A DNA stretch of 64,000 nt from Sinomicrobium oceani (GTDB lineage: Bacteria; Bacteroidota; Bacteroidia; Flavobacteriales; Flavobacteriaceae): assembly GCF_900119185.1 (NCBI RefSeq), contig NZ_FPJE01000004.1, positions 1-64,000 on the forward strand, written 5' to 3'. The number at the start of each line of letters is the position of its first letter. Positions within the stretch are counted from its first letter, which is position 1. The translations under genes were made by a program, and so were the position numbers. This document shows, piece after piece, positions 1,215-29,982 of this stretch. The notes under the pieces are model-generated. The model was not told where the DNA came from and made no database searches. It saw only the letters and a list, made by a program, of their open reading frames with translations.

Positions 1215-1408
1215 GTATTTTTTACACTATCGTTGCGAATATCTGATTAATTAACAATTTGTGAGCAGCACACTACAGGATAGTTGTTTTGCTTATAACC
1301 AATATTTTCGTCCTTGCTTGAATAGAAAATCTTAATCCGTGAAACAGGATAATACGGGCTGCCGCTGATGAAAGCAGATGTTATCCTGGAAACTTAAAAT
1401 GTAAATCG

Positions 1409-3517: not shown

Positions 3518-3569
3518 AAAACAGGAAGGACAATCCGAAAAAGAGATCGTCACGTAGTTTTAAGATATT

Positions 3570-4844
3570 ATGAGAATTGACCAGCAACAAATAACGGAAG
3601 TAAATACCCGCAACAACGATATCCATAACCGGCAGATGGATATCCTGAAACAACTTCATTCCGGGTCGCGTATAGAAGGGATCATCGGGAAGCTTATTGA
3701 ATTTCAGGTGGCATTGCCAAGCTGGGCCCTCGGTGCAGGAGGAACCCGTTTCGGCCGTTTTTCCTACGGCGGAGAACCCGGATCCCTGGAGCAGAAGATC
3801 GAAGATATCGGGCTCATACATCAGCTAACCAGAACTGCCGGGGCGGTTTCTTTACATATACCGTGGGATATCCCGGATGATATTCCGGCGGTTAAGGAAC
3901 TTGCGGATTCCCTCGATATTACTTTCGATGCCATGAACTCCAATACGTTTCAGGACCATGAGGGGGCGGCTCAAAGCTACAGGAACGGTTCGCTGAGCAG
4001 TGTTCACGAGGCCGCCAGAGAACAGGCTGTGGAACATAATAGAGAGGTGATCCGTATCGGGGAAAATCTAGGTTCCAAAGGACTGACTGTATGGTTGGCA
4101 GACGGGGCCAGTTTTCCCGGGCAATACAATTTTCAAACGGCTTTGAAACATACCGGGGAAAGTCTTAAAACCATTTATGCGGCATTGCCGGACGACTGGA
4201 AAATGCTGATCGAATACAAGCCTTATGAACCTCATTTTTACAGTACTGTTATCCAGGACTGGGGGACTTCCTTAATGCTCGCAAATGCCTGCGGGGAAAA
4301 AGCATTCACCCTTGTAGATCTCGGGCATCACCTGCCGAACACCAATATAGAGCAAATTGTGGCTACGTTGATGGCACAGGGAAAACTGGGAGGCTTTCAT
4401 TTTAATGACAGCAAATACGGAGACGACGATCTTACCGTGGGTTCTGTAAAACCCTACAACCTGTTCCTCATCTTTAACGAACTGGTTTACGGTATGGAAA
4501 ACAATGCTGAGAATCCTCCGCTTTCCTGGATGATTGATGCCAGTCATAATATAAAAGACCCTCTGGAAGATCTTATTCAGTCTCTCGAAGCCATCCTGGT
4601 CGCTTACGCACAAGCCCTTCTTGTAGATCGGGAAGCACTTTCGGAAGCTCAGCAGTACAGTGATGTTGCTCAATGCCAGGAAATTTTGCAGGAGGCATAC
4701 CGTACAGATGTCCGTCCCTTGCTCCGGGAATCCCGGCTTCGCTCCGGTGGAGCCATGTATCCGTTACAGGTTTACAGGGACCTGGAAATACGAAAAAAAC
4801 TGATCCGGGAAAGAGGGCTGAAAGTACGGGCTACAGGATTGTAA
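3570..4844 (+). CDS. rhaI: L-rhamnose isomerase, P. stutzeri type
   Basis: This 424-residue TIM-barrel isomerase would convert L-rhamnose to L-rhamnulose using two divalent metals. The metal ligands known from the Pseudomonas stutzeri enzyme (E219, D254, H257, H281, D289, D327, from memory) all appear here shifted by exactly four: E215 in MLIEYKPYEP, D250 and H253 in LVDLGHHLP, H277 in FHFNDSKYGDDD, D285, and D323 in SWMIDASHN. This fixes the family and separates it from the E. coli RhaA type. The gene follows the aldolase fusion by 52 bp and precedes the kinase by 46 bp. The length is normal and the ATG start at 3570 is the only good one. Confidence 0.93.
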   Translation: MRIDQQQITEVNTRNNDIHNRQMDILKQLHSGSRIEGIIGKLIEFQVALPSWALGAGGTRFGRFSYGGEPGSLEQKIEDIGLIHQLTRTAGAVSLHIPWDIPDDIPAVKELADSLDITFDAMNSNTFQDHEGAAQSYRNGSLSSVHEAAREQAVEHNREVIRIGENLGSKGLTVWLADGASFPGQYNFQTALKHTGESLKTIYAALPDDWKMLIEYKPYEPHFYSTVIQDWGTSLMLANACGEKAFTLVDLGHHLPNTNIEQIVATLMAQGKLGGFHFNDSKYGDDDLTVGSVKPYNLFLIFNELVYGMENNAENPPLSWMIDASHNIKDPLEDLIQSLEAILVAYAQALLVDREALSEAQQYSDVAQCQEILQEAYRTDVRPLLRESRLRSGGAMYPLQVYRDLEIRKKLIRERGLKVRATGL

Positions 4845-4890
4845 GATAAAGTCAATATGTGCCCCCAACCAACTAAAACAACTTAAACCG

Positions 4891-6294
4891 ATGACGACCA
4901 AAACCGAGGTAACTGCTGTTTTTGATATCGGAAAGACCAATAAGAAATTTTTTCTATTCGACACCGGTTTCCGGGAAGTGTACCGGGAATATACTATGCT
5001 GGATGACACCACGGATGAAGATGGCTACCCTGCGGAAAATCTGGAGCAATTGCAACAATGGCTCAAAGGAATGCTCGATCGTATACTCCATGCCGAAGAA
5101 TACAAGGTTACCGCGATCAACTTTTCCAGCTACGGGGCCAGTTTCGTGCATGTGGACGAAAATGGTAATGTACTTACGCCGCTGTACAACTACACCAAGC
5201 CGCTGCCGGAACACATCAGTAAGGAATTTTACGACACCTATGGTGATCCCATTGATTTTGCAACCCGTACGGGGTCGCCCCGGGCGGAAATGCTCAATTC
5301 GGGAATGCAGTTGTACTGGATAAAGAAGACTAAGCCCGAAATATTCGAAAGAATAAAGTATTCCCTGCATTTTCCGCAATATCTCTCCTATCTCTTCACC
5401 GGAATACCGTTGAGCGATTACACGAGTATAGGATGTCATACCGGGTTATGGGATTATGAGGCCAACGATTATCACGCGTGGGTGTACAAAGAGGAAATAG
5501 ATCGAAAACTTCCGCCCATCGTGCCTTCGGAAACTGCTTTGAGCATGACCTATAAACGGAGGAAAATAAAAATAGGAGTAGGAATACACGATAGTTCGGC
5601 AGCGCTGTTGCCTTATATTCTCAGTGAAAAAAAACCGTTTTTATTGGTGTCTACCGGAACCTGGAGTATTTCTCTTAACCCTTATAACCAGGAGCCGCTG
5701 TCCGGAGAAGATGTAGAGCACAATTGCCTGAATTACATGCGTACCGATGGGAACCGGGTTAAGGCCACCCGTTTTTTTATGGGCAACGAATACCGCATAC
5801 AGGTAAAAAAACTGGGAGCGTATTATGCCAAGGCTTACGGATACCACCGCAAAGTAAAGTTCGACAGGCGGTTGTATATGAAACTGATCTCGAACCCGTC
5901 GATACATTTTAAATTCGAGGGGATAAAACTCAGGAGAAAAAAGCTCCACAAAACCGACCTGGCTCCTTTTTCGACTTTCGAAGAGGCTTTTCATCAGCTG
6001 ATGATAGAGCTTATGGAGCTTCAGGTAGAAACTTCCGGAAGAGCGATCGGGAATTCCCGGATCAACAAGATATTTATCGATGGCGGTTTTACGGACAATG
6101 ATGTCTTTGTGAAGCTGATGTCACATCATTTCAGGGATTTTAAAGTTCGGACTACCCGGAATTCGCTGGGTTCGGCATTAGGGGCTGCCATGGTGATCTC
6201 CGAAGAGAAGCCAGGACCCAAGTTTCTGAAAAAGACCTATAAAATGGAAAAACTGGCGCCTTTGCTGCTTTCGGTGCAAAGAGACAATGTGTAA
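4891..6294 (+). CDS. rhaB: FGGY-family carbohydrate kinase, probable rhamnulokinase
   Basis: This 467-residue kinase is expected to phosphorylate L-rhamnulose at C1. The N-terminal ATPase fold starts with VFDIGKTNKKFFLFD (10-24), the phosphate 1 loop of FGGY kinases. LLVSTGTWS (near 251-259) is the phosphate 2 region and KIFIDGGFTDN (near 393-403) the adenosine region. Sequence alone does not separate rhamnulokinase from fuculo- or xylulokinase; the assignment comes from its place between rhamnose isomerase and the transporter. Length is typical and the frame is intact. Spacing to the next gene is 34 bp, consistent with one transcript. Confidence 0.87.
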   Translation: MTTKTEVTAVFDIGKTNKKFFLFDTGFREVYREYTMLDDTTDEDGYPAENLEQLQQWLKGMLDRILHAEEYKVTAINFSSYGASFVHVDENGNVLTPLYNYTKPLPEHISKEFYDTYGDPIDFATRTGSPRAEMLNSGMQLYWIKKTKPEIFERIKYSLHFPQYLSYLFTGIPLSDYTSIGCHTGLWDYEANDYHAWVYKEEIDRKLPPIVPSETALSMTYKRRKIKIGVGIHDSSAALLPYILSEKKPFLLVSTGTWSISLNPYNQEPLSGEDVEHNCLNYMRTDGNRVKATRFFMGNEYRIQVKKLGAYYAKAYGYHRKVKFDRRLYMKLISNPSIHFKFEGIKLRRKKLHKTDLAPFSTFEEAFHQLMIELMELQVETSGRAIGNSRINKIFIDGGFTDNDVFVKLMSHHFRDFKVRTTRNSLGSALGAAMVISEEKPGPKFLKKTYKMEKLAPLLLSVQRDNV

Positions 6295-16551: not shown

Positions 16552-18702
16552 CTATTTTAAAACATGAATTTCGGAAGTGTCGGGTGTTTTTTCTATAAGT
16601 ATTACATCACCTGTCACGACCTGCCCCTCTACAATAAGGAACGGGTGTAATCTTTTTCCTTGTCGGTGTGCTATGACCCATATATATTCTTTTTCCGGCA
16701 ACCTGATCTTTACAGCTTCGGCATCTTCGTCATCAAGGGCGTTATCGTTGCGGTCGTAAACCGGGATCTTTTCGTATTGCACCCGGGTGTGCTCCGGAAA
16801 ATATAACAGGGTTGTAAACGATTGAAATCCTTTTCCCCCGGCAGAAAACTCTGCACGTCTTACAGGTTTTTTCAGATTGTACTCCGGTGACCACCAGGCA
16901 TCGGAGAGTTGTATCTCAATATCTTCAAGAGGCTGAATACGAAGGTTGTCCGAAGTGTGGAGGGTAGACAAGCCGTTGTTTTGTATGGCGACCTTTTGGT
17001 CGGGAAAATTAAAGTACCGGGAGTATGTATGTTCTCCCTTTCCCCTAAAACTGTCTGCGAGAATCCATATTCCGGGTTTCAGGTACAGCATTTGTCTTTT
17101 TATTAGTACCGGATCTTCCAGTCTCATATAAGCTGTGTTGATGGCTTCTGCATAATCGTATTGCTCCGAAATAACCGTATATGCCCCTTCCGAGCGGGCT
17201 TCGTAGGCATTGCTCCACGATCCTGAATATATACTGTTGGGCAGGTGATCTACCCCAAGTGTATTGTGCGCGCTGTTCTCTTTGAAATATTTTCTCCATT
17301 TGGTATTGACATAGGTGTACCGCCCTCCGTCAATGAGATAGTCGCGATGATGAGCATAGAGTGTGAAATGCAACAGGTCGTCGTGAGAATGTCCCCCGCC
17401 GAGGCGTTTCATGTGAAAACTACTATAATAAGCGTCGTGTTCCCAGGATGAGCGGGAATAGAGGTCTCCCGTATTTTGTTGCCAGGCGGACAGAAAGCCG
17501 GGGTCTTCTGTGCGGAGACCGGTATAGGTTTGTTTATCTTTTTCCGAAAAAATAAAGAAATTTTCATAATCGGGAGTTTCAAATGCCCTCGATTTTATCG
17601 TGCCGTCCCCGAACAACAGGGCAGCTGTGGTGAGGAGCCCTCTCAGGTCATTATCATCGCTGTCTCCCAGAAGGGGTTCGTGATAATCGGGTTTTTGCCA
17701 CATGATATTGGCATAGGCCATATCCCTGGTTTTTTTATGAATAATTGCGGGCAACCGGATCTGCCGTCTTTGGGCAAGGAGAAGGGTGTTGAGGTAGCAG
17801 TGAAAAACCTCGTTGTGGTACATGGGCGATTGCTCCCATTGTGTACCATCTTCCAGTATCTGGTTACGGATACAGGTTTCGAGCCGGGAAATCGCATTTT
17901 TTTGCCAGGCTGCTGCCTGCCGGAAATCCGAAAGGAAAACGGATAGATTGAACAAGCCGTGAAATTCCAGGATACCCCAGTTGCTTATCTGGGAGTGACG
18001 ATTGTATGCGCTATTCAGAAAATCTGCATGAACATAAAGGGCGCCAAGAAATTTTTCAATAAAATCAGGGGTGATTGCCCTGGAATTTTTAAGGAGTTCG
18101 AAGGTTTTGATCCAGTTTTCTGCACGAATACCCGCTTCTATACGCCTCCAGGAGGTCTGTTTTTTGGCATCTTCAAGCGGGTTATTGTCGATCCAGTGTG
18201 TTACCTGTTGTACAAAAGTACGGGCGTATTTTTCTTTTCCGGTAAGGAAGTACGCTTTGCCGAGATCGATCCAGTACCGGTGACGATTCAGCATAAACGT
18301 CCATTCTTCATCACCGAAAGGTTCTGCATCCCAGTCTGTTTCACCGGGGAATTTATAAGGTATGTTTGTTTTTTCCATATCCCATTCGTAGCGGAACAGA
18401 AAGTATTTATTTTTTACTTCTCCGGCAGTTCGCAGGGAATTTTCTACCTCTTTTCCGAATTGTATGCGGATGTCAGGAATATCTTCTTCGGATACCCGGA
18501 TGTAAAGATTTTTTCGCTTCCGGAAAATATCCAGTAACATCTTTTTTGCTTTTTCGGAATCGCCCTGTTCGTAAAGCGCTTTCACAGGTTTCAGAATGGG
18601 AGTGTCCAAACTCCGTGTATCGAGCATGTTGTGCTGGAATGCAAAAGTTTCCAGGATGCCTGCAAAGACATAAAATATCAATATTCTAACGGAGCGGTAC
18701 AT
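16552..18702 (-). CDS. heparinase III-like polysaccharide lyase (heparinase II/III fold, PL12-like)
   Basis: A 716-residue lyase, probably periplasmic, with a hydrophobic N-terminus (MYRSVRILIFYVFAGILETF). Residues 90-370 form the alpha/alpha toroid and about 400-716 the beta-sandwich Hepar_II_III domain, seen in GGGHSHDDLLHF (435-446) and SAHNTLGVD (477-485). N241 in QISNWGILEFHG and Y295 in SPMYHNEVF are 54 residues apart, as are N240 and Y294 of Pedobacter heparinase III (from memory). Such lyases cut uronic-acid glycans by beta-elimination. Heparinase III prefers low-sulfate heparan chains, so heparan- or heparosan-like substrate is plausible but inferred. The next lyase gene upstream is only 4 bp away. 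Confidence 0.85.
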   Translation of the reverse strand: MYRSVRILIFYVFAGILETFAFQHNMLDTRSLDTPILKPVKALYEQGDSEKAKKMLLDIFRKRKNLYIRVSEEDIPDIRIQFGKEVENSLRTAGEVKNKYFLFRYEWDMEKTNIPYKFPGETDWDAEPFGDEEWTFMLNRHRYWIDLGKAYFLTGKEKYARTFVQQVTHWIDNNPLEDAKKQTSWRRIEAGIRAENWIKTFELLKNSRAITPDFIEKFLGALYVHADFLNSAYNRHSQISNWGILEFHGLFNLSVFLSDFRQAAAWQKNAISRLETCIRNQILEDGTQWEQSPMYHNEVFHCYLNTLLLAQRRQIRLPAIIHKKTRDMAYANIMWQKPDYHEPLLGDSDDNDLRGLLTTAALLFGDGTIKSRAFETPDYENFFIFSEKDKQTYTGLRTEDPGFLSAWQQNTGDLYSRSSWEHDAYYSSFHMKRLGGGHSHDDLLHFTLYAHHRDYLIDGGRYTYVNTKWRKYFKENSAHNTLGVDHLPNSIYSGSWSNAYEARSEGAYTVISEQYDYAEAINTAYMRLEDPVLIKRQMLYLKPGIWILADSFRGKGEHTYSRYFNFPDQKVAIQNNGLSTLHTSDNLRIQPLEDIEIQLSDAWWSPEYNLKKPVRRAEFSAGGKGFQSFTTLLYFPEHTRVQYEKIPVYDRNDNALDDEDAEAVKIRLPEKEYIWVIAHRQGKRLHPFLIVEGQVVTGDVILIEKTPDTSEIHVLK

Positions 18703-18706
18703 ACTT

Positions 18707-20680
18707 TTATAATTTTTCTTCTTTTATGATACACTTCCAGTTCCCCTGAAGTGTTTTTTCTTTTGCACGAAGTACGATTCTGTAGAGTTGTTTTTGTTGC
18801 CACGAACGGAGCAGACGGGGATCTTCAAGGGGGAGTTCTTCCACGGTTACATCAAACGTATCTTGTGGAAAGTAGAGAGATACCTCCCGGTTTTTCTCCG
18901 TTTTTAATATGATCTTTCCATCTTTTCCGGTTACGGGAGGAAGCGTGGTTATGAAGTGCAGCGTATTGTAATCCCGGAACGAGCGGAGTGAAAAACTATC
19001 TTTAATACGGAGCTCAGGAGCAGAAGACCGTTGCAGGTGGTAGGTTCTCTTCCAGGATGTACATTTGGCATCTATGGGATAGGCAGAAGCGATATCCAGT
19101 GTAAAACGGAGGCCTGACCTGGTGTTTTCGAAATCGACAGCTGCAGCTTTATATTGTTTTCCGAAAGACTGGGAAGTGCCGTTTACCCTGGGGAGGTTGT
19201 GATAATCGGATTGCATGGTCCAGATTGTATATCTTTCGGAGCTGAAAGTCTTGCGCGTATAGGTCTCTACACCTATATCAACAAGCAGCGGGGTACCGTT
19301 GTGGAAAAGCATAAAACTCCCTGCATCGTTATGATTATGGCTTTCGTCGTTATATCCTCCTTTGGCTGCAAAGAAAAAACCTTTTTGCGCATTTTTATCC
19401 GTACGCCCTCCGGCAATCTGGGTCTGGGGGTACCAGAGATAAAGCGTATTTTCTTTTTCGGTAGGGGTGTTTCTGATGTTATTGTAATTAAACAGGTTAT
19501 GTAATGCACGATCCAGACTGTGATCGAGAGGCTCGGAAAAAAAATTGTTCTGATCAGCTATAAAAGCCCCGAATTTTTTCAGATCGGTATCGCGGAGGTA
19601 ATTTCCATACCGATAAATGATTCCCGCATCGGCATTCAGGCGGGCCGGTGAGTCTGCAAAGTTTACAAACCAGTCTCCCGCAATATGGGCATTCATGATA
19701 TACTTTCCCATATTGGCAATAAGCGGCTGATTTCCGATATAGATTTTATCGGAAGATATCTTTTGAAGCAGTTCCAGGTATTCCATCATCTTTCCCCCGG
19801 CATGATCCCAGTATGCGGGCCCTTCTTCACAAGCTCCGTCGTCTTTGTAGTAATTTATGAATTTGTCTACGGAATGCATGCTTTTTGTGATCACTTCGTA
19901 TTTGGTGTCCTCATCCAGGGAAGGTCCCAGAAGGAGACTGCTGATCAGTACATTGTAATTGCACCAGGGGTTCCAGTTGTTGACAAAACCGTCTTTTTTA
20001 AAAGCCTGCCACCAGAAATCGTCTCTTTCGAGATAAGGTGTGATAATTCTGCTTTTGATCTCCTGTGGGATTCGTTTTTGCAGAAAAGGAGAGATCGTTG
20101 CAAAATCATCCCTGAAAAAGTAATAGGCCCACCCCAGGAGATTTGCGATCTCTCCTGCACCGAGGTCGATAACGGGTTCATTGACATTGGGAATTCCGGC
20201 ACCTCCTTTTTGTGCGGGCAGATGGGCCGATAAGACCCAGGTAGATTGTTCGCAAATAGCCCAGGAACCATTGACCAGGGCATCCATAAAACGCCCCTGA
20301 TCTTCGAGGAGTTCTGCCAGGATCAGTTTTTTCAGTGACGCACTTCTTTTGCGGCTGTATTGCTGCATGACTTCCCTGTCTCCGGTACGCTTGAAGTCGA
20401 GATAAGCGGTTGCGGGAATTGCCGGCCAGTCATAGCGCATGGCTTCTTCACCTTCGGTGATGATCTTTTTCCGGATTTCCGCAGGAAGGTTTTTAAGATA
20501 GATCGTTACCGAATCTTTACGGTAAGGCGTGTAATTTGTTTCGGTGATGTGCCGTATGGTGTTGTCTTTTAGAAAAGAACCGAGAAGATTGCGTTGTTGC
20601 TGTGCTGTAGAAGGTGTGAAAACCGTTAGAAGAATAACGGTGAAAACCAACGGATAACATATTCCTGAATAGTGTTTCAT
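18707..20680 (-). CDS. second heparinase II/III-family polysaccharide lyase
   Basis: A 657-residue lyase with a Sec signal peptide (residues 1-26, ending STAQ). The toroid domain carries NNWNPWCNYN (234-243) and EEGPAYWDHAGG (285-296), which would supply the neutralising Asn and catalytic Tyr (Y290). The C-terminal beta-sandwich carries SHNHNDAGSFMLF (447-459), with His as base, and the downstream LLVDIGVETYTRKTFS. These motifs differ clearly from those of the neighbouring PL12-like lyase, so the two enzymes are probably specialised for different bonds or chain lengths. I do not assign a PL family number. Translation of the two lyases is likely coupled, as only 4 bp separate them. Confidence 0.85.
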   Translation of the reverse strand: MKHYSGICYPLVFTVILLTVFTPSTAQQQRNLLGSFLKDNTIRHITETNYTPYRKDSVTIYLKNLPAEIRKKIITEGEEAMRYDWPAIPATAYLDFKRTGDREVMQQYSRKRSASLKKLILAELLEDQGRFMDALVNGSWAICEQSTWVLSAHLPAQKGGAGIPNVNEPVIDLGAGEIANLLGWAYYFFRDDFATISPFLQKRIPQEIKSRIITPYLERDDFWWQAFKKDGFVNNWNPWCNYNVLISSLLLGPSLDEDTKYEVITKSMHSVDKFINYYKDDGACEEGPAYWDHAGGKMMEYLELLQKISSDKIYIGNQPLIANMGKYIMNAHIAGDWFVNFADSPARLNADAGIIYRYGNYLRDTDLKKFGAFIADQNNFFSEPLDHSLDRALHNLFNYNNIRNTPTEKENTLYLWYPQTQIAGGRTDKNAQKGFFFAAKGGYNDESHNHNDAGSFMLFHNGTPLLVDIGVETYTRKTFSSERYTIWTMQSDYHNLPRVNGTSQSFGKQYKAAAVDFENTRSGLRFTLDIASAYPIDAKCTSWKRTYHLQRSSAPELRIKDSFSLRSFRDYNTLHFITTLPPVTGKDGKIILKTEKNREVSLYFPQDTFDVTVEELPLEDPRLLRSWQQKQLYRIVLRAKEKTLQGNWKCIIKEEKL

Positions 20681-20760
20681 TTTTTTTGTTTTAATATGTG
20701 CTGAGGGAATGACCGGTTATGCATGGTTGGTTAAGAAGCAAAACCGGCCCTCCCGTTGTA

Positions 20761-22341
20761 TTATTCTACATAGGCTCCGAGCTCTGCAAGGTGGGTGTAG
20801 TTGAAATTTCCATAGCTATTGGCTGTAACCAGTTTTATATAGCGGTAAGACTGTGTGGAAGACAGATCGATGTACTGCCAGTTCATAACTTGCTGTAATG
20901 TATAATTTCCGAGAGATTGCCAGGTGCTGTTATCATTACTGCCAAAAAGCTCGAAATCTTTTATGGCCCCGTTGAGGTTGGACCGGTTTGCAAAAGCGAA
21001 ACCTTTTACAGAAGTTACGGACCCCATATCCAGTACAAAATAATGCGGGTGTGCCGGAAGTGAATTTTTCCACTCCGTATGCCATACACTCGATTGGTCA
21101 CCATCGAGCATTTTACTTGCTGCCCCGGTGTCTTCTTCACTATCAGCGTCAATAACGGACCATCCGTCCCGGTTGATCAGTTCTTTCGTATTGATGATCC
21201 CGATATTGGGCGTACCGTTTTCAAATTCGTATTCATAGCTGTATGTTTTGGCGGTACCGTTTTCATGATAAAAGCGTATCCTGAGCTGGTATTCACCCTC
21301 CAGGGTATAAAAATCGGTCAGAGGGCATGCTATATGAAGGCTGTCGGTGCCGATGGGTTTAACGGTCCATGCCGGTGCATCATAATCCTTATTGCCCCCG
21401 GCCGGATAGGGATCGTGCCAGATATTAATATCATTAACATCGAGATCGCTTTCAAATTTTGCATCGATAATAATGTTTCCGTTTTCCGTTTTACCCCTTA
21501 GTTTGATGATTTTATGATTGACGGGCTGGTACCAGTCGGTTCGTGAAGTTGTGCTGAACGTTTGGGAATTTGCAAAAGTGGCAGCAGAAGCACCGGTGAT
21601 AAAAGTCGGTGTTTTGCCGTAGGTGTGGTTACCTCCTCCCATGAGTGCAGTACCTAAAGTAGCCTGCTCGCTTTTTCGCTCTTTGTTGTGACTGGCGTTA
21701 AGTCCGTGTCCGAGTTCATGAATAAGCCCGCCTATCCATTTTGTGGCCAGATTGCCGTGTACGTCGGATTGTCCGAGATACTGTATATCCATGGCAGGAT
21801 AATCGAGCGCAAAACAATATTTGCCCAGGCCGTAAAATGGTACTCCGCCCGGATTCAGGGAATCCCCCGATGTCGAAGGCAGGATGACCAGGGTATGTTC
21901 GCTTTTTTTACGGTTCTGATGAGTTGCAAAGTATTGTTCGAGTTCCGGAATAATATTGGAGCCCCCGCCGGAATACGGGTAGTGGTCTGCTTCATACTGT
22001 CCTTCCACGATATCGATGCTGATCATGTCCTGGGATATAAGTTCCATCCCAAACGATTTACGCCCGAATCCTTCCCTGTCGAGGTTTTCTGCGAAAAACT
22101 CCTGGGTTTGTAACAGGATGCCGCTCAGCCTTTCCTCGAAATCCGTAAAAGCAGTGGTGTTTTGAGGTAGAAAATAGACCACATTAAGTTTGTAAGGCTG
22201 GCTGCTCCATTCGTTGGCCGTCTGGTTTCCGGGGTCATTGTCATTCCCGGGGCCATTGTCTGCTCCTAAGTAATCGGGGTTACAACTGTACAGGGCAGTG
22301 GCAATTCCGCATGCCATAATCGATTTGAAAAAAGTGTTCAT
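20761..22341 (-). CDS. metzincin-like zinc lipoprotein with F5/8 type C domain
   Basis: A 526-residue lipoprotein: the signal peptide ends at the lipobox ALYSC, with C20 as the lipidated residue. The metallopeptidase core (about 50-300) has HELGHGLNASH at 208-218, giving zinc ligands H208, H212 and H218 and base E209. This is the metzincin pattern HExxHxxGxxH with Asn in place of Gly, and M234 in TALMGGG may be the Met-turn. Residues 385-526 form a discoidin (F5/8 type C) domain, a carbohydrate-binding module. It resembles zinc-dependent metalloproteinase lipoproteins of Bacteroidota. Its place between susD and the lyases suggests it trims a protein carrying the glycan, which is inference. 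Confidence 0.85.
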   Translation of the reverse strand: MNTFFKSIMACGIATALYSCNPDYLGADNGPGNDNDPGNQTANEWSSQPYKLNVVYFLPQNTTAFTDFEERLSGILLQTQEFFAENLDREGFGRKSFGMELISQDMISIDIVEGQYEADHYPYSGGGSNIIPELEQYFATHQNRKKSEHTLVILPSTSGDSLNPGGVPFYGLGKYCFALDYPAMDIQYLGQSDVHGNLATKWIGGLIHELGHGLNASHNKERKSEQATLGTALMGGGNHTYGKTPTFITGASAATFANSQTFSTTSRTDWYQPVNHKIIKLRGKTENGNIIIDAKFESDLDVNDINIWHDPYPAGGNKDYDAPAWTVKPIGTDSLHIACPLTDFYTLEGEYQLRIRFYHENGTAKTYSYEYEFENGTPNIGIINTKELINRDGWSVIDADSEEDTGAASKMLDGDQSSVWHTEWKNSLPAHPHYFVLDMGSVTSVKGFAFANRSNLNGAIKDFELFGSNDNSTWQSLGNYTLQQVMNWQYIDLSSTQSYRYIKLVTANSYGNFNYTHLAELGAYVE

Positions 22342-22372
22342 ACTATAAGTTTTGAGGTTAAAATTTTATGAA

Positions 22373-22412
22373 AAATCCCCTAAGACCCTCAGGAAACAAA
22401 AGTCTTAGGGGG
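22373..22412 (-). terminator. hairpin between susD and the metallopeptidase
   Basis: CCCCTAAGAC (22377-22386) pairs with GTCTTAGGGG (22402-22411), a stem of at least 10 bp. Read on the minus strand it is followed by ATTTTTC, so it resembles an intrinsic terminator inside the operon. It may reduce transcription of the enzyme genes relative to susCD, or stabilise the susCD message. Confidence 0.7.
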
Positions 22413-22419
22413 TATGTTT

Positions 22420-24066
22420 TTACCATTCCGGGTTTTGTTCGAGATTCGGGTTCAAGGCCCGTTGTTCGGTGGCAAAAGGCCATAAATAGTCTCTGGCGGG
22501 GTCGAAGTAGCGGTTTTCCTTTTTCTGGAGCAGTATGATATTGTCGTCGGTCAGCAAAGGGTCGTTACCTTCCTGTTCTTTGAATTCGTCGAAATAGTAG
22601 TTGCCCAGGATGTCTCTCTGCAGTACGTCTTCTGCTATTTTCCATCGGATGATATCCCAATAACGGAATCCTTCGAGAGCGAGTTCCACACGTCTTTCCC
22701 TGCGTATCTCCTGCCGCATATCAAGCCCGTTCGCTGCAACAAAAGCATTGGTGAGCGCAGGCATATTTACGCTTTCTCTACTCCTGAGCTTATTGACGGA
22801 AAGGTTGAGGTCTTCGTCGCTAATGGCGCCGTCGAGCTCATAAGTAGCCTCGGCATAGTTGAGCAGTACCTCGGCATATCTTATGATAGGGCGGTCTATG
22901 TAAGAACGCGATACCTGCCAGTCGTTGAGGTTTGCGTACCTTCGGTTTCCGAAACCTGTTTTCTGAAAGTTTAGCGGGGGAATGGTATAAACAGGCCTGG
23001 TCCCTATATATTCGTCACCTGCTTTAAAGAAGGTGTCTCCCATACGGGGATCGCGATTGTTGAACACTTCTACCGTATTGGCAGGTTGTTCGTAAAGCGG
23101 AGACATGTCTATGGGAAGGCCGTCGGTCATCAGATAGGAATCAGCGAGATATTTTGTGGGGTTTGCCACCCCGGTCTCCAGGTTTCGCTGAGTTACATGA
23201 TATGAAATGCTGTTTTCGGTATTTTGCCCGTACATTCTTACCAATATATTTTCTTTGTTATCAGGGCCGTTTCCTTCGTACTGAAAAAGATTGAAATAAT
23301 TGGGAAAAATATCGTGCTCTCCGGATTGTATAATTTCGGAAGCAGCAGCTTTTGCGATAGCGAGATGACTTTGCGGATCACCATAGCCGTGAAATTTAGA
23401 GCGTGTTCCTTCGAACAGGGCGGCCCTGGATTTCAGTGCAAGAGCAGCGGTACGGGTTATACGTCCGTATTCGGAAGCATCCTGATCGCTCGGATCGGGT
23501 AGCAGGGAAACGGCGATGTCGAGGTCGTCATATATGGTTTGTATAACTTCTTCGCGGGAAGCCTGGGGCTCCAGTAACTCCGGAGCATCCTCGGTAAGTG
23601 TTTTAAGAATCAGCGGAACGCCTCCGTAACGCTGAAAAAGCTGAAAATAGCCCCAGGCACGGAAAAAATAGGCTTCTCCTATGTAAACATCTACGAGTTC
23701 CTGCGCCGTTCCATTCTCCACAACGAGTTGGGATTTTTTCATGATGTTGTTTGCCCAGCGTATCAGGGCATACTGATTTTCGTAAAAGCCGTCGGTTCCG
23801 GGCACGATCCTGGTGCCATCGCTGATGGAGTTGTTATTGGTTCCGTACGCATCGTCCGACCATACATCGTCGGTGACCGGTAGTCCGGGAAGATAGGTAT
23901 AGAGCCTGTTGGTCCCCATTTTAAGATCGGCTTCATTTTGCCAGAAAGAGGGGTCGGTGATATCGGTTTCCGGGATCCTGTTTACTTCACAGGAGGTCAT
24001 TCCCATCGTGCAGATAAGAATTCCGGTAGCTATTTTATGTAGTGTGGATTTCATAATTTTTGTCAT
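22420..24066 (-). CDS. susD: RagB/SusD-family glycan-binding lipoprotein
   Basis: A 548-residue surface lipoprotein that caps the SusC barrel and captures glycan. The lipobox is MGMTSC; initiation may be at 24066 or at the in-frame ATG 24054, which gives the more usual start MKSTLHKIATG. TPR-like helices of the SusD fold are evident (YIGEAYFFRAWGYFQLFQRYGG near 125-146), and the C-terminal half carries RRVELALEGFRYWDIIRW (near 450-470), a family signature. The SusC stop codon is 35 bp upstream. The substrate cannot be read from the sequence; the linked lyases and GH88 enzyme point to a uronic-acid polymer. Confidence 0.93.
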   Translation of the reverse strand: MTKIMKSTLHKIATGILICTMGMTSCEVNRIPETDITDPSFWQNEADLKMGTNRLYTYLPGLPVTDDVWSDDAYGTNNNSISDGTRIVPGTDGFYENQYALIRWANNIMKKSQLVVENGTAQELVDVYIGEAYFFRAWGYFQLFQRYGGVPLILKTLTEDAPELLEPQASREEVIQTIYDDLDIAVSLLPDPSDQDASEYGRITRTAALALKSRAALFEGTRSKFHGYGDPQSHLAIAKAAASEIIQSGEHDIFPNYFNLFQYEGNGPDNKENILVRMYGQNTENSISYHVTQRNLETGVANPTKYLADSYLMTDGLPIDMSPLYEQPANTVEVFNNRDPRMGDTFFKAGDEYIGTRPVYTIPPLNFQKTGFGNRRYANLNDWQVSRSYIDRPIIRYAEVLLNYAEATYELDGAISDEDLNLSVNKLRSRESVNMPALTNAFVAANGLDMRQEIRRERRVELALEGFRYWDIIRWKIAEDVLQRDILGNYYFDEFKEQEGNDPLLTDDNIILLQKKENRYFDPARDYLWPFATEQRALNPNLEQNPEW

Positions 24067-24101
24067 TTTTAATGGATACTCCTTTAAACGTAGTGAAAGG
24101 G

Positions 24102-27100
24102 TTAAAATGCCAGGTTAATCCCCAAAGCAAGTTTCCCGGACAGCGGATAATCGGAATTAGAGAGATCTCTTTGTTCGGGGTCTATAACACCTTTAAAAGG
24201 TCCGAGATTGGTGAACGTAAGAATATCTTCTGCCGAGCAGTATATGCGGAAGCGTGAAAAGCCGATTTTCTCGAGCACACTTTCCGGTAAAGAATAACCG
24301 ATCTGCATATTTTTCAGTCGTACATAAGCGGCATTCAGGATCCATCTGTCGGAAGCTACGAAATTGTGTCCGCCTGCGAGGAATGGCCTCGGAAAAGCCG
24401 CATCGGGATTGTCCGGTGTGTAGTAATCCATATGGTATTTACGAGGCTGTATCCAGGAGGCCTGGAGCGGTTGCCGTACGTAAATACTCGGAATGATATT
24501 TCGTTTGCCTACTCCCTGGAAGAAGAAATTAAAATCTATATTTTTCCAGTTTCCTCCGAGAGTTACGCCAAATAGATAGCGGGGATCGGTGGTGCCCATC
24601 ATACGGAGATCTCCCGGGTTTTGCAGGTTTCCGTCACCCGGAGTAATTCTTCCGTCTCCGTCGAGGTCGACATATTCGATATCTCCGATACCTGTATTGT
24701 TATGATAAAAAGGAGCTGCAGCTAATTGCTGGTCGGTTTCTATATATCCCGGAACGGTTTCGTATCCCCAGAGCGTACGCAGGGGCATGCCTTCGATCCT
24801 GGTATTGTTTCCGTCACTTACTACACTTACACCTCCGTAATTAATGAGTTTGTTCTGGTTATCGGAAAGGTTGAGCCCTACATTATATTTGAAATTTTCC
24901 CCGATACGATTCCTGTAATTCAGGTTGAGTTCCCATCCCCAGCTCTTCAGTTCGCCTGTATTGACCATAGGAGGAGTTACACCAAGGGTAGCGGGACGTG
25001 GAATGCGCACCAGCATGTTTTTATTGAATTTTTCATAAAAATCGAAACTACCACTCAGTTTGTTTCCGAAAAATCCGAAGTCGATACCGTAGTTAAAAGT
25101 TTCGATCGTTTCCCAGGCCAGACTGGACGAAGGAATACTACCCTGTGATACATAGGTGTTACGTCCCTTATCCTGGCCCAGCACCAGGTTATTGGATACC
25201 GACAGGATAGGGAGGTATGAGTAGTTACCTATGATGTCTTCGGAATTGGCTCCTCCGAGTTGCCCCCAGGAAAATCTCGGTTTGAGTTGAGAGATAAAGG
25301 AGATATTGTCGGAGAACCAGCTTTCGCGGTGCATGTTCCATCCTCCCGAAGCAGAAGTAAACCACTTTACACGTTGACCGGGGGCCAGGCGGGAGCTTTC
25401 GTCGGAACGTAAGGTGAATTCCAGGAGATACTTGTCATCATAGGTATAATTAAATCTTCCCAAAAGGGATTGATTGGCAAATTCGCCTACACTTTCGCTG
25501 TTGTTGAGGTTTTCCTGATCGGCGAAGTTCAGGCTGGGCAGGTCGTTGGTAAACATATTGCTGGCTGATGCGACAACGGTTTTTCTGGTGAAATCTTCCC
25601 ATTGATACCCTGCAAGAACGTGAAAGTTATGCTTTTCGGCCAGGGTAAGGTCGTAATCCACGAGAAACTGGAAGTTCTGGGTAACTATATTCCTTCGGTT
25701 AACCTCGTAGAAATTCGGATTGTTGAGCAGGTATACAGGAGTATCGGCGCGATCCCAGAGTTCTACCGTACGCCGGAAAGTGTCCAGATCCCTGCGCTGG
25801 TCTTCCCTTCCGTAGATAGTCCGGAACTCGAGACCTTTTACAAAATCTTTGGCAGTAAGGGTAAAAACGCTGTTCAATCCACCGAAGTTATCGTGCACAT
25901 AACCGCCTGCTTTAAGGAGGGCATAGGTGTTATTCCCCGAAGATCCTGCACCACCAAATAGTTTTCCTTCGGGAGTAAATATGGGGAATCGTGTTCTGGC
26001 CTGGTACACTTGCTGAAAAAGACCGTAACCGTTGATGGTGGACGAGGACCTCTTTTTGTATTCGTCCGTGTAGTAAATACGGGAATCCAGGTTGAGGTGT
26101 TTGGTAAGGTCGGCGCTGACATTGATCCTCGCATTCCAGCGGGTGTATTGATCCGGTCCTATTTTAAATATACCGTCCTGGTCCTGGTAACCCAGGGAAA
26201 AATTGTATCTCATTTTTTCGGAACCTCCGCGGGCACTGAAATTGTGATTATGCATAAAATAAACTTTTCGCAAAACGTCTTCCGAAATATGACGCTGGTT
26301 ATACATAATGTATTTGTTCGGGTTTTCGGGATCTACCACGTAAGGTATGTTGTTCCGGATATTTTCGAGATCGAAATCGCTGTACTCCGGACCTATACCT
26401 GCGTTGGCCCTGGCGAGGTTGGAGTATTCCGCTTCTTCGAGAAGTGATAAACGGTCCGGGACATTCAGGGCCCATTGCGCGGTAAGCTGACCGGTATATT
26501 CGAAGACAGCCTTGCCCTTGGTTCCGGTCCTCGTGGTGATGAGGATAACCCCTCCTGCTGCTCTGGCTCCGTAAATGGCAGCGGCGGCACCGTCTTTGAG
26601 CACGGATACCGATTCGACATCGGAAGGATTCAGACCTTGAAGGGCTTCCGGTCTCGAGGTAACACCGTCTATAATAACCAATGGCGGAGTAGCGCCGTTA
26701 GCCGAACTTACCCCGCGTATTTCCATAGAGAGTCCTTCTTCTCCGGGTTGTCCGGTACTTCTTGTTATGGACAGACCTGGTACCGTTCCCTGTAAGGCGG
26801 TGGTCATACCTGTTGCAGGTCTGTTTTGTATGGTTTCGGAAGATACCGTACTTACGGCCCCTGTCATAGTGGCTTTTTTCTGTGTTCCGTAACCTACGAC
26901 AACAACCTCGTCGAGCTGAGAAATATCCTCTTTGAGGCTCACATCGATAGTTTTTCGGCCGTTAACCGGTATTTCCTGGGATATATAACCCATGTAGCTG
27001 AAAACGAGAACGGCATTATCGCCGGAAACGGAAATTTCGTAATTGCCGTCAAAATCGGTAGCAACACCCCTGGAACTGTTTTTAAGTACCACGGTTACCC

Positions 27101-27233
27101 CTGGCAGGGGCATGTTGTCGGTGGCGGACGTAACGACCCCGCTTACCGGGGTTTGTGCGTATGCAGAAGACAGGCTGCATAACAGAATGAACAGGCACAT
27201 CAGGCCGTGCCTTTTTGTTGGAAAGTCTTTCAT
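24102..27233 (-). CDS. susC: SusC/RagA TonB-linked outer-membrane transporter
   Basis: A 1043-residue outer-membrane importer with a signal peptide ending SSAYAQ near residue 27. Residues 28-115 form the CarboxypepD_reg-like domain (SGVVTSATDNMPLPGVTVVL). DEVVVVGYGTQKKATMTGAV (near 118-137) is the hallmark before the plug, and the barrel ends in LALGINLAF. It imports oligosaccharides cut at the surface, together with SusD. It is the first gene of the polysaccharide operon, which probably continues through susD, the metallopeptidase and both lyases. The 405-bp upstream region carries two putative LacI operators. The start ATG at 27233 is supported by the signal peptide. Confidence 0.95.
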   Translation of the reverse strand: MKDFPTKRHGLMCLFILLCSLSSAYAQTPVSGVVTSATDNMPLPGVTVVLKNSSRGVATDFDGNYEISVSGDNAVLVFSYMGYISQEIPVNGRKTIDVSLKEDISQLDEVVVVGYGTQKKATMTGAVSTVSSETIQNRPATGMTTALQGTVPGLSITRSTGQPGEEGLSMEIRGVSSANGATPPLVIIDGVTSRPEALQGLNPSDVESVSVLKDGAAAAIYGARAAGGVILITTRTGTKGKAVFEYTGQLTAQWALNVPDRLSLLEEAEYSNLARANAGIGPEYSDFDLENIRNNIPYVVDPENPNKYIMYNQRHISEDVLRKVYFMHNHNFSARGGSEKMRYNFSLGYQDQDGIFKIGPDQYTRWNARINVSADLTKHLNLDSRIYYTDEYKKRSSSTINGYGLFQQVYQARTRFPIFTPEGKLFGGAGSSGNNTYALLKAGGYVHDNFGGLNSVFTLTAKDFVKGLEFRTIYGREDQRRDLDTFRRTVELWDRADTPVYLLNNPNFYEVNRRNIVTQNFQFLVDYDLTLAEKHNFHVLAGYQWEDFTRKTVVASASNMFTNDLPSLNFADQENLNNSESVGEFANQSLLGRFNYTYDDKYLLEFTLRSDESSRLAPGQRVKWFTSASGGWNMHRESWFSDNISFISQLKPRFSWGQLGGANSEDIIGNYSYLPILSVSNNLVLGQDKGRNTYVSQGSIPSSSLAWETIETFNYGIDFGFFGNKLSGSFDFYEKFNKNMLVRIPRPATLGVTPPMVNTGELKSWGWELNLNYRNRIGENFKYNVGLNLSDNQNKLINYGGVSVVSDGNNTRIEGMPLRTLWGYETVPGYIETDQQLAAAPFYHNNTGIGDIEYVDLDGDGRITPGDGNLQNPGDLRMMGTTDPRYLFGVTLGGNWKNIDFNFFFQGVGKRNIIPSIYVRQPLQASWIQPRKYHMDYYTPDNPDAAFPRPFLAGGHNFVASDRWILNAAYVRLKNMQIGYSLPESVLEKIGFSRFRIYCSAEDILTFTNLGPFKGVIDPEQRDLSNSDYPLSGKLALGINLAF

Positions 27234-27354
27234 GTTTTGATCGGTTTTTGATTAATTAGTTTATGTTATCGAGCACAAATTGGTGTGTGCCATGGTCTTC
27301 ATTTTATACCCATTATGGATAAAAGTACCTGTGTAATGGTGTTTGTTTCATGAT

Positions 27355-27366
27355 ACAATCGTTTGT
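27355..27366. promoter_or_regulatory. putative LacI operator, proximal copy at susC
   Basis: ACAATCGTTTGT, one base away from the perfect palindrome ACAATCGATTGT found at two other places in the locus. It lies about 120 bp upstream of the susC start. LacI-family sites are typically palindromes with a central CG, as here. Confidence 0.65.
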
Positions 27367-27522
27367 TTTAGTATATTAAAAAATGGTTTCGAACACACTT
27401 TTTATTTTAAGGGAAAAGTGTTTTTTAGGTGAATTGAATTGTGAATATTTTGCATTAAATCTTAAAATATTGGCTAATGTATAATTTAGGATGCTAAAAA
27501 ACAAAGAAATAGGCTGTAAAAT

Positions 27523-27534
27523 ACAATCGATTGT
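27523..27534. promoter_or_regulatory. putative LacI operator, distal copy at susC
   Basis: Perfect 12-bp palindrome ACAATCGATTGT, 290 bp upstream of susC and about 105 bp past the lacI stop. It is identical to the site at 30072-30083. Two spaced sites allow looping repression, as in the classic lac system; that mode of action is inference. Confidence 0.75.
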
Positions 27535-27638
27535 TTTTTTGTAAATTCAACATCCCTTATTCTGTAAGTATCCTAATACAAACCATGTAGCTTTACTTTG
27601 TTTTTAGATGTCCGCTGAGACTGAAACAGGGCTTCAGT

Positions 27639-28673
27639 TTATCCATTAACTTTTCTATCCGATGAATCCCGCGCTACGAGTGTAGGGTTCAGTATGATGG
27701 TTTTATTGTGTACGGAATGATCCTGATCCTGAATATTACGGACGAGAAGGTCACAGGCAATTTTACCGATCTCAAATCCGGATTGGTCTATCGTGGTAAG
27801 CGACGGCTCTATGACCTCTGAGATAGGTTCGTTACTGAACCCTACGATGGCGATCTCATCCGGAATCTTTTTTCCCAGTTTTTTAAGATATTTTACGGCG
27901 CCTATAGCGGAGACATCATTAGCGGCAAATATGCCGTCTACTTCAGGATTGTTTTTCATCAATTTCTCCGCCGCATCGTAACCGTCTGCTTCCATAAGCC
28001 TTGAGGTGAGCACGAGTTTGGGGTTGTAGGGAATCTGATGATCCTTCAGTGCTTGTTTATACCCCTTGAGACGGTTTTTGTAGATTTCCAGTTTTTTCGG
28101 GCCTGCGAAGTGCGCTATTTTTTTGCACCCCTTTTCCAAAAGGTGAAGGACGGCTTCGTAAGCGGCCTGTGCATCATCTATAATCACCTTGCTTGTACCG
28201 GGGATACCTTCGCAATGGCGGTCAAAAAATACGAGAGGGATACCGTTATCCTGAAAATACTCAAGGTGTTTCCCGGTGTTGGTTTCCATCGATACGGAAA
28301 TGAGGATCCCATCTACGCGGTTGGCAATAAGATTTTTAACAATACGTTCTTCCCGATCCAGTTTTTCGAGAGACTGGCATATAATGACATTAAAGCCGGA
28401 AGCAAAAGCCGCTTCTTCGATACCGGCAATAGTGGAGGAAAAAAAATGTCTGGACACCCGGGGAACCACAACGCCTATGGTATTTGTACGATTACGCCGA
28501 AGATTTGAGGCCAGCAGGTTGCGTTCGTACCCGAGTTCTTTGGCTTTGGCCAGAACTTTTTCCTTGGTTTTCTGAGTTACCCTGCTACTGTTATTTAGAG
28601 CACGGGATACGGTAGAACTGTTAATGTTCAGGACCCTCGCTATTTCGTGTATGGTGGGTTTTCCCTTTTTCAT
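27639..28673 (-). CDS. LacI-family transcriptional regulator of the polysaccharide locus
   Basis: A 344-residue regulator. Residues 4-60 form the LacI helix-turn-helix and hinge (TIHEIARVLNINSSTVSRAL, then LASNLRRNRTNTIGVVVP). Residues 62-340 form the periplasmic-binding-protein-like sensor, with DGIFAANDVSAIGAVKYLKK and EIAIVGFSNEPISEVIEPSLTT-type motifs. It should bind a sugar, or an unsaturated oligosaccharide product, and release DNA. Genes of this kind commonly act on adjacent operons, and three copies of a matching palindrome lie upstream of susC and the GH88 gene. No such site lies upstream of lacI itself, so autoregulation is not apparent. Length and frame are normal. Confidence 0.92.
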   Translation of the reverse strand: MKKGKPTIHEIARVLNINSSTVSRALNNSSRVTQKTKEKVLAKAKELGYERNLLASNLRRNRTNTIGVVVPRVSRHFFSSTIAGIEEAAFASGFNVIICQSLEKLDREERIVKNLIANRVDGILISVSMETNTGKHLEYFQDNGIPLVFFDRHCEGIPGTSKVIIDDAQAAYEAVLHLLEKGCKKIAHFAGPKKLEIYKNRLKGYKQALKDHQIPYNPKLVLTSRLMEADGYDAAEKLMKNNPEVDGIFAANDVSAIGAVKYLKKLGKKIPDEIAIVGFSNEPISEVIEPSLTTIDQSGFEIGKIACDLLVRNIQDQDHSVHNKTIILNPTLVARDSSDRKVNG

Positions 28674-28800
28674 GGATATAAATTTTCCGGAGATGGTGGT
28701 GTAAATATACCATCGTCGTCTAATAATGATGCAGGCCGGATGGATTTTTCCGTTAAAGAAAGAACTGTTGTCTGTAGAAAGCGTACCTTTCTAAAGGTTC

Positions 28801-29982
28801 TTATTTCTGTTTATTGCTGCGAAGCATTGCTTCCAGGAAATAGTAATCCGCGTAGTTGAGCGGGACATCAACTTCTACATTATGAGGTTTGCTGCCCACG
28901 GAATGCATCAGGAGAAAATCACCGTTGGTTCCGGGCTTTGCAAAATATGCCGGGGAGCCAAGGCTCTGCATGATCTGGTCCGCAAATTTTACATGGCTTT
29001 CTGCTTTTTTGTTGCCTTCAAAAGTGCTGAGCTCATAGAGTGCGGATGCGGTTATGGCCGCTGCCGAAGCATCTCTCGGGGTAGAGTCGGCTGCCGGTGC
29101 ATTATAGTCCCAATACGGGATTTTATCTTCCGGAAGGTTGGGATGATACATGATGAAATCGGCAATTTTAAGTGCCTGTTCCAGGTATCGGGTATGTCCT
29201 GTTTCCCTGTAGCTCATGGTGTAACCATAGAGACCCCATGCCTGTCCCCTGGCCCATGCGGAGTCGTCGCTGAGTCCCTGGTGCGTGTTTTTTTGCAGAA
29301 TGTCTCCGGTTATGGTGTCGTAATCTACAACATGATATGAGCTGAAGTCTTTTCTGTAATGGTTTTTTATGGTTGTATCGGCATGGGAAACCGCAATATT
29401 ATAGTAAGTAGAGTCGCCCGATATTCTCGTTGCATGAAAAAGGAGTTCGAGATTCATCATGTTATCTATAATAACCGGGCATTCCCATTTTTTGGACCAG
29501 TCCCAGGATTGTAGAATTCCTGCTTTCGGATGAAACCGGGCAGACAGTGACTTTGCTGTCCTGACGATAACGGAATCATAAGTGGGTGAATCCATGTATT
29601 TCAGGGCATTGCCATAAGAGCACTCCATGATAAAACCGACATCGTGATTACCCTCCCAGTACTGAATGGTATCGAGCTTCAGGGTATATTCTTCGGCCCG
29701 GGTCTTCCACATATTGTCTTTGGTAAGTCCGTATAGATTCCAAAGCGTACCGGGATAGAAACCGCTGGTCCAGTCATAAGCCCCTACGCGAACAAGTTTT
29801 CCGTCTTTTGTGGTACGGGGGATGGGTTTTTTGTCCTCTTTAAAAGGGGCTATGGAGGTATAAAGCGAATCGTATTGAGCGGCAGCCCGGTCAATGAGTG
29901 ATAAGGATTTTTTAGCGACGGGCTTTTCTGTACATCCGGAGATCGCGACAGCAATAAGCAGTAAGAGAAGTGGTCGTTTCAT
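28801..29982 (-). CDS. GH88 unsaturated glucuronyl hydrolase, lipoprotein
   Basis: A 393-residue enzyme with a lipobox (AVAISGC, C17), so it is probably anchored in the periplasm. The alpha6/alpha6 barrel of GH88 shows YDWTSGFYPGTLWNLYG (69-85), NHDVGF with D114, IIDNMMNLEL with D173, and SDDSAWARGQAWGLYGYTM (238-256). D114 and D173 correspond to the catalytic pair D88/D149 of Bacillus UGL (from memory; the spacing is similar). GH88 hydrates the 4,5-double bond that lyases leave at the non-reducing end, releasing the unsaturated uronic acid. This completes the lyase pathway of the locus. It has its own promoter with a LacI operator. Confidence 0.93.
   Translation of the reverse strand: MKRPLLLLLIAVAISGCTEKPVAKKSLSLIDRAAAQYDSLYTSIAPFKEDKKPIPRTTKDGKLVRVGAYDWTSGFYPGTLWNLYGLTKDNMWKTRAEEYTLKLDTIQYWEGNHDVGFIMECSYGNALKYMDSPTYDSVIVRTAKSLSARFHPKAGILQSWDWSKKWECPVIIDNMMNLELLFHATRISGDSTYYNIAVSHADTTIKNHYRKDFSSYHVVDYDTITGDILQKNTHQGLSDDSAWARGQAWGLYGYTMSYRETGHTRYLEQALKIADFIMYHPNLPEDKIPYWDYNAPAADSTPRDASAAAITASALYELSTFEGNKKAESHVKFADQIMQSLGSPAYFAKPGTNGDFLLMHSVGSKPHNVEVDVPLNYADYYFLEAMLRSNKQK

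Follow-up and report, generated by a model that had tools for sequence, protein, structure and literature searches.

The window analysed here is a stretch of 64,000 bp (contig NZ_FPJE01000004.1, positions 1 to 64,000) of a Sinomicrobium oceani genome of 5.02 Mb in 57 contigs, from a genus of the Flavobacteriaceae. At positions 16552-29982, it holds a cluster of seven genes, all on the minus strand, which was examined as a candidate polysaccharide utilization locus (PUL) for a glycosaminoglycan (GAG). In order of transcription, the genes were assigned to a GH88 unsaturated glucuronyl hydrolase, a probable lipoprotein (P0001, 28801..29982); a LacI-family regulator (27639..28673; Pfam LacI 9e-12, Peripla_BP_1 1e-34); a SusC-type TonB-dependent transporter (24102..27233; TIGR04056 at 850.6 bits, cut-off 368); a SusD-type lipoprotein (22420..24066; SusD_RagB 1e-42); a putative OgpA-type metzincin O-glycopeptidase with a C-terminal F5/8 (CBM32-like) domain (P0002, 20761..22341); a putative lyase of polysaccharide lyase family 33 (PL33), subfamily-1 type (P0004, 18707..20680); and a divergent PL12/heparinase-III-like lyase (P0003, 16552..18702). 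The original prediction had read this region as two lyases, GH88, a SusCD pair, and a metzincin-like lipoprotein; these open reading frames were all recovered at the predicted coordinates, with the lipoprotein signal of P0002 read by eye, while the LacI regulator had gone unmentioned. From SusC to P0003, the genes are separated by gaps of 35, 78, 80, and 4 bp, which suggests a single operon with the GH88 and LacI genes upstream.

The gene directly behind SusD encodes P0002, which matched OgpA of Akkermansia muciniphila (6z2d) with a phmmer E-value of 2.5e-72 and an identity of 123 out of 297 aligned residues (41%) in the mapped stretch. As described in an excerpt of PMC7518263, OgpA is an O-glycopeptidase that cuts before O-glycosylated serine or threonine. 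The residue map showed that P0002 keeps the HEXXHXXXXXH motif, the catalytic glutamate, and the Met-turn, with a complete zinc site in which H208, E209, H212, H218, and M234 align with OgpA H205, E206, H209, H215, and M231. Five of the six residues of the Gal-GalNAc pocket named in the same excerpt (Y116, F166, K198, W199, N235, and Y236) were also kept. The AlphaFold model of P0002 (25 sequences, pLDDT 85) was matched by Foldseek to OgpA 6z2d (E 1.2e-36, TM score 0.86 on the target, root-mean-square deviation 2.3), with both the catalytic and the beta-sandwich domain reproduced in the overall fold, and the next match was the Amuc_1438 glycopeptidase at TM scores of 0.61-0.71. The C-terminal domain matched CBM32 structures solved with galactose (2v72) and with the Tn antigen (4a44). 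P0002 is, by sequence and model, a putative OgpA-type O-glycopeptidase and thus a metzincin of a known kind, sharing with OgpA (PMC7518263, excerpt) the metzincin domain followed by a beta-sandwich, the zinc triad, the glutamate, the Met-turn, and five of the six pocket residues. In contrast to OgpA, it has a histidine for Y236, an extra C-terminal F5/8 domain, a probable lipoprotein anchor, and a place in a SusCD-lyase operon. The earlier proposal that the locus also attacks a protein part persists, with support from homology, in the form of an OgpA-type peptidase that would act on O-glycoproteins. A shorter OgpA subfamily of 460 amino acids (L042:1394-2773 and L045:8817-10196) lacks the F5/8 tail, ends in another short C-terminal domain that appeared beta-gamma crystallin-like by eye, and has N/L at the places of K198/W199.

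P0004 matched four PL33 chains with E-values between 5e-155 and 5e-150 (phmmer; 8r73 at 5e-155 and 8r6z at 3e-151) and kept all 11 mapped functional residues (N238, Y291, H444, R103, H154, L174, W224, W239, W242, Y470, and F475); a twelfth, His301 in the paper, was left out as unmappable, the chain having Asp at that position. In the excerpt of PMC11848413, W242 marks PL33 subfamily 1, whose characterized members act on hyaluronan (HA) or heparosan and in some cases also on chondroitin sulfate (CS), while gellan is a substrate of PL33_2. P0004 is a PL33 subfamily-1 type lyase with a putative activity of this kind. The Bacteroides thetaiotaomicron hyaluronan system that includes BT4410 (PL33) resembles the present locus in its PL33_1 type, the 11 mapped residues, and its GH88 and SusCD logic (PMC11848413 and PMC12877422, excerpts). 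BT4410, however, lies away from the main CS/dermatan sulfate/HA PUL and beside BT4411 (DUF4627), whereas P0004 lies within a SusCD operon together with a PL12-like lyase and an O-glycopeptidase.

The active-site stretches of the two Hepar_II_III_C proteins of the locus differ (ESHNHND and GGHSHDD). P0003 carries both Pfam heparinase domains (Hepar_II_III_N at 2.5e-63, and Hepar_II_III_C) and, like heparinase III (PL12; 4mmh, 5jmd), has a two-domain architecture; it matched 4mmh at E 7.7e-35, with N241, Y295, and H438 aligned with an Asn, a Tyr, and a His, of which we take the Asn and the His to be catalytic. The aligned Tyr is named as a catalytic residue in the excerpt of PMC11848413. Unlike heparinase III proper, P0003 is distant and far beneath the NCBIfam HepC cut-offs (175.7 versus 700 bits and 128.1 versus 600 bits), and it was treated as PL12-like, not as PL12. 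Besides the window genome, none of 295 sampled Bacteroidota genomes held a relative at E 1e-80, and a three-sequence P0003 profile at E 1e-45 matched, weakly (E 7.3e-47), one of 344 Bacteroidota genomes, the window genome excluded. The ten best of 27 plasmid-borne relatives were 22.8-26.3% identical, and a resemblance of about 26% was found to 'alginate lyase family' proteins of non-host bacteria. The predicted model of P0003, built on two sequences with a pLDDT of 41.5, was too poor for use.

The sequence relationship of P0001 to GH88 was evident in phmmer searches, where 3wiw was the best match (E 1e-110), followed by seven more chains at E 2e-45 to 2e-43 named unsaturated glucuronyl hydrolase, unsaturated chondroitin disaccharide hydrolase, or gbs1889. 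Its motifs HDVGF at 113 and IIDN at 171 presumably hold the catalytic Asp pair, and the lipoprotein model LPAM_1 scored below its cut-off (18.2 versus 20 bits). Despite the strong match to a solved GH88, no glycoside-hydrolase Pfam family was matched even at E 10, so that Pfam alone would miss this gene. The uronic-acid lyase route ending in GH88, as first proposed, is supported by homology.

Six Sinomicrobium genomes were reached, the window genome included, and the locus was present in at least four of them, namely the window genome, G300, G299, and G297 (S. weinanense). The GH88, LacI, SusC, SusD, and P0003 genes were common to all four loci, with identities across the three sister loci of 77-79% for P0001, 79-85% for the LacI regulator, and 66-73% for P0003, and the recurrence of this core in three other genomes argues against a chance grouping. 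The O-glycopeptidase was found in three of the four loci, each time directly after SusD. The window locus is ordered GH88-LacI-SusC-SusD-OgpA-PL33-P0003, while the G299 locus has OgpA with a PL8 and lacks PL33, and the G297 locus has OgpA, PL8, and PL33, with extra genes between LacI and SusC that include a histidine kinase with a response-regulator domain. The PL8 of G297 was nearest the chondroitinase AC of P. heparinus (1hm2, E 2.9e-180), compared with E 6e-51 for xanthan lyase. For the remaining genomes, G094 and G301, in which PL33 and OgpA alone were looked for, a search for PL33 at 1e-60 gave nothing, and OgpA was matched only remotely (26% at best in G301; the F5/8 part only in G094). 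PL8 and PL33 thus stand in for one another against a constant set of GH88, LacI, SusCD, and P0003, and both should therefore act on the same polymer.

With moderate confidence, we read this locus as a PUL for an unsulfated or low-sulfated glucuronic-acid GAG, likeliest hyaluronan or chondroitin, together with O-glycosylated protein such as that of the animal extracellular matrix. P0002, a probable surface lipoprotein, would attach to glycans of the galactose or GalNAc type by way of its CBM32-like domain and loosen the protein by cleaving the peptide bond in front of O-glycosylated Ser/Thr. Chain fragments would then be imported by SusCD and cut to unsaturated disaccharides by PL33 (PL8 in a sister species) and the PL12-like lyase, after which GH88 would remove the unsaturated uronate and leave an N-acetylhexosamine, the whole set being controlled by the LacI regulator. 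We infer all biochemical steps of this route by homology. The main substrates recorded for both PL8 and PL33 are HA and CS (PMC11848413, excerpt), and the chondroitinase-AC-like PL8 that replaces or joins PL33 makes hyaluronan or unsulfated chondroitin a likelier substrate than heparosan. Among the polymers first put forward, the hyaluronan-like candidate has thus been sharpened and heparosan, less favoured because PL8 swaps with PL33, has been set back from main target to rival; a target of mucin alone was rejected as the leading explanation on account of the lyase-GH88 core.

Several observations weigh against this reading, and the identity of the polymer is one of its weak steps, because both the PL12-like P0003 and a GH88 whose nearest solved relative, 3wiw, is heparin-preferring lean towards a heparin-type chain. 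In the excerpt of PMC11848413, PL12 enzymes are recorded only on heparin/heparan sulfate, one PL8 is also recorded on heparin/heparan sulfate, and PL33_1 includes heparosanases. The chain could accordingly be heparosan or a heparan sulfate of low sulfation, with PL33 and a heparinase-III-like lyase as the cutting enzymes and a GH88 of the heparin type, an explanation to which these records and the heparinase III structures closest to P0003 all lend weight. We nevertheless consider it unlikely, given that the endo-lyase place is taken by PL8 alone in G299 and by PL8 with PL33 in G297, that this PL8 is nearest chondroitinase AC, and that P0003 scores far below the cut-offs of the HepC models. 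On the side of catabolism, the window genome has three Glucosamine_iso (NagB-family) matches and no AgaS-family match, which gives a lean to N-acetylglucosamine, and so to hyaluronan, that is weak because the control genome of Bacteroides ihuae lacked an AgaS match as well.

The low-sulfation argument also lost some of its force. As the original prediction had it, no sulfatase family appeared among the Pfam matches of the seven genes, but the genome contains 14 sulfatase-family matches outside the locus, 12 of them strong, so that the absence is a property of the locus and not of the genome. Around the 12 strong matches (11 stretches), the only relative of a reference lyase was a PL8 on contig C53, 47% identical to the G297 PL8 and about 1.8 kb from a 659-amino-acid sulfatase-family protein. 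One of the two weak sulfatase matches, on contig C24 (L046), lies about 15 kb from a third heparinase-fold protein (G000:C24:46908-47693; L046, L047), which has an Alginate_lyase domain and stands beside SusCD, with neighbours that looked uronate-catabolic-like by eye only.

Cooperation between the peptidase and the lyases is the other weak step, because the G300 locus, with a SusC 91% identical to that of the window, repeats the window order minus OgpA, which indicates that the lyase route does not need the O-glycopeptidase. No protease remnant was seen in the G300 gap, and O-glycopeptidase relatives of 37% identity are encoded elsewhere in that genome. Further points on this side are the histidine at the place of OgpA Y236, a position with Tyr in 5 of 15 aligned rows (P0002 included), and the absence of a known O-glycan hydrolase among the Pfam matches of the seven genes. 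The pairing was also scarce in other genomes. A scan of named genomes gave 220 relatives of P0002, of which the best 80 loci were read over at most 10 kb per side, with some genomes represented twice, some flanks short, and contents assigned by BLAST to reference proteins. A recognised GAG lyase occurred in two of these 80 loci, L067 (S. weinanense) and L127 (Pedobacter nutrimenti). A SusC relative was found in 37 loci and in none of the fetched flanks of the other 43; sulfatase relatives occurred in 6 loci, GH20 in 5, GH95 in 2, and relatives of two GH2 references in 4 and 7, respectively. Conversely, neither an OgpA relative nor a P0003 relative was present in any of 13 PL33 loci found outside Sinomicrobium among 395 Bacteroidota genomes, where GH88 adjoined in four and a distant sulfatase relative in two; no phylum-wide link between PL33 and OgpA emerged from this count. 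By both counts, the pairing of an O-glycopeptidase with a GAG lyase is rare, and it probably has more than one origin.

The P. nutrimenti locus comprises, in order, SusC, SusD, SusC, SusD, a 475-amino-acid protein, the OgpA relative, a GH2, a PL35 (8khv at E 1.4e-246; 9o3q, 'PL35 chondroitinase', at E 2e-81), a GH88, and a relative of beta-D-glucuronate dehydratase (9o4u at E 2e-94, with a chain named beta-galactosidase scoring slightly better). It is like the window locus in its OgpA relative (37%), GH88 (51%), heparinase-like lyase, and SusCD, and unlike it in having PL35 as the lyase and, in addition, GH2 and the dehydratase relative. The O-glycopeptidase could, instead of working with the lyases, be an independent passenger acting on mucin-type glycoproteins and merely sharing an operon with hyaluronan/chondroitin genes. 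Its absence from the G300 locus, the 43 relatives lacking a SusC relative in the flank, and the company of GH2, GH20, or sulfatase with GH95 around others are consistent with this, as is a strong hairpin of 15 pairs and a T-run that separates it from SusD (22377..22411, minus strand; pattern scan only). We regard a passenger role as rather unlikely, since three divergent Sinomicrobium loci all have the gene immediately behind SusD and a similar pairing with a lyase is found in P. nutrimenti and, from an excerpt of PMC12269599, in Bacteroides caccae. The hairpin may act as an attenuator, so that the enzymes would be transcribed less than SusCD; the pattern scan counted 27 terminator-like sites in the region, compared with a mean of 17.6 (standard deviation 4.5) in shuffled sequences, and the promoter scan, with 25 sites versus 21.6 in shuffles, was uninformative.

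Against the animal-matrix part of the preferred reading, no animal host is in evidence, and the one abstract among those listed that names a source gives a coastal strain. The chain could then be a non-animal glucuronic-acid polymer, for example a bacterial exopolysaccharide or an algal or fungal glycoprotein. Activity of the PL33 family on gellan (PMC11848413, excerpt) and the similarity of P0003 to 'alginate lyase family' proteins of non-host bacteria point the same way. P0004 keeps the PL33_1 Trp, however, whereas gellan belongs to PL33_2; the sister PL8 is much nearer chondroitinase AC than xanthan lyase; and the O-glycan pocket of P0002 is close to the core-1 type, which together make a non-animal target improbable.

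A precedent for a GAG and O-glycoprotein target is B. caccae PUL25 (Alvarez et al. 2025, PMC12269599). In the excerpt of that paper, PUL25 is a chondroitin PUL without CS sulfatase that encodes PL35, GH88, GH109, a glucuronate dehydratase, and M60-like putative O-glycopeptidases, and its authors suggest an aggrecan-like proteoglycan with mucin-like O-glycans as the target. The window locus has the same combination of GAG lyase, GH88, and putative O-glycopeptidase with no sulfatase in the locus, but its peptidase is of the OgpA metzincin type and its lyases are PL33 (or PL8) and a PL12-like protein; the Pfam matches of its seven genes include no PL35, GH109, M60-like, or glucuronate dehydratase family. 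Judged by titles and abstract openings, the open-licence literature yielded no report of an OgpA-type enzyme placed in a GAG locus. The statement in the original prediction that no system of exactly this make-up had been described therefore holds to the letter and is too strong in idea, since PUL25 realises that idea with other families. By this analogy, the pairing is already known and the window locus would represent other families for the same purpose.

More broadly, and as a tentative proposal that we hold to be possible but doubtful, Bacteroidota may repeatedly have joined unrelated O-glycopeptidases (OgpA-type metzincins in Sinomicrobium and Pedobacter, M60-like in B. caccae) to sulfatase-free hyaluronan/chondroitin lyase-GH88 loci that attack both core protein and chain, also outside the gut, with P0003 founding a new lyase family for a portion of the polymer that does not change with the endo-lyase present (PL33 or PL8), e.g., the end of the chain or its junction with the protein. 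If so, the idea of proteoglycan attack would no longer be confined to a single gut Bacteroides locus but would also cover Flavobacteriaceae and Sphingobacteria, where the protease belongs to an unrelated family, and G300, as a natural locus without the protease, makes it testable. P0002, with its built-in galactose-binding domain, and P0003, as an unassigned lyase, could then also serve as tools in glycoprotein and glycosaminoglycan analysis.

Other OgpA relatives were found in different settings. Two more (36-38%) lie in SusCD loci of the window genome with GH2 and GH20 nearby (G000:C22:67001-87000, L042), in what looks like a separate mucin-type O-glycan system; G299 and G300 each have counterparts of both, whereas G297 has a counterpart of only one. 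A set of SusC-SusD, OgpA relative, sulfatase, and GH95 recurs in three genomes (L035, L048, and L049), the sulfatase preceding the OgpA relative in L048, and perhaps serves sulfated fucosylated O-glycans. In Flavihumibacter sp. ZG627 (L124), the OgpA relative is contained within an open reading frame of 1999 amino acids. As for the surroundings of the window locus, one flank consists of the housekeeping genes for GldD, CNNM/CBS, and SSB, and the opposite flank of those for two M16 peptidases and ribosomal L21. Elsewhere in the window (111-6294), a DDE transposase is located beside an aldolase/SDR fusion, a xylose-isomerase-like protein, and an FGGY kinase, a gene set that we take to resemble one for rhamnose catabolism.

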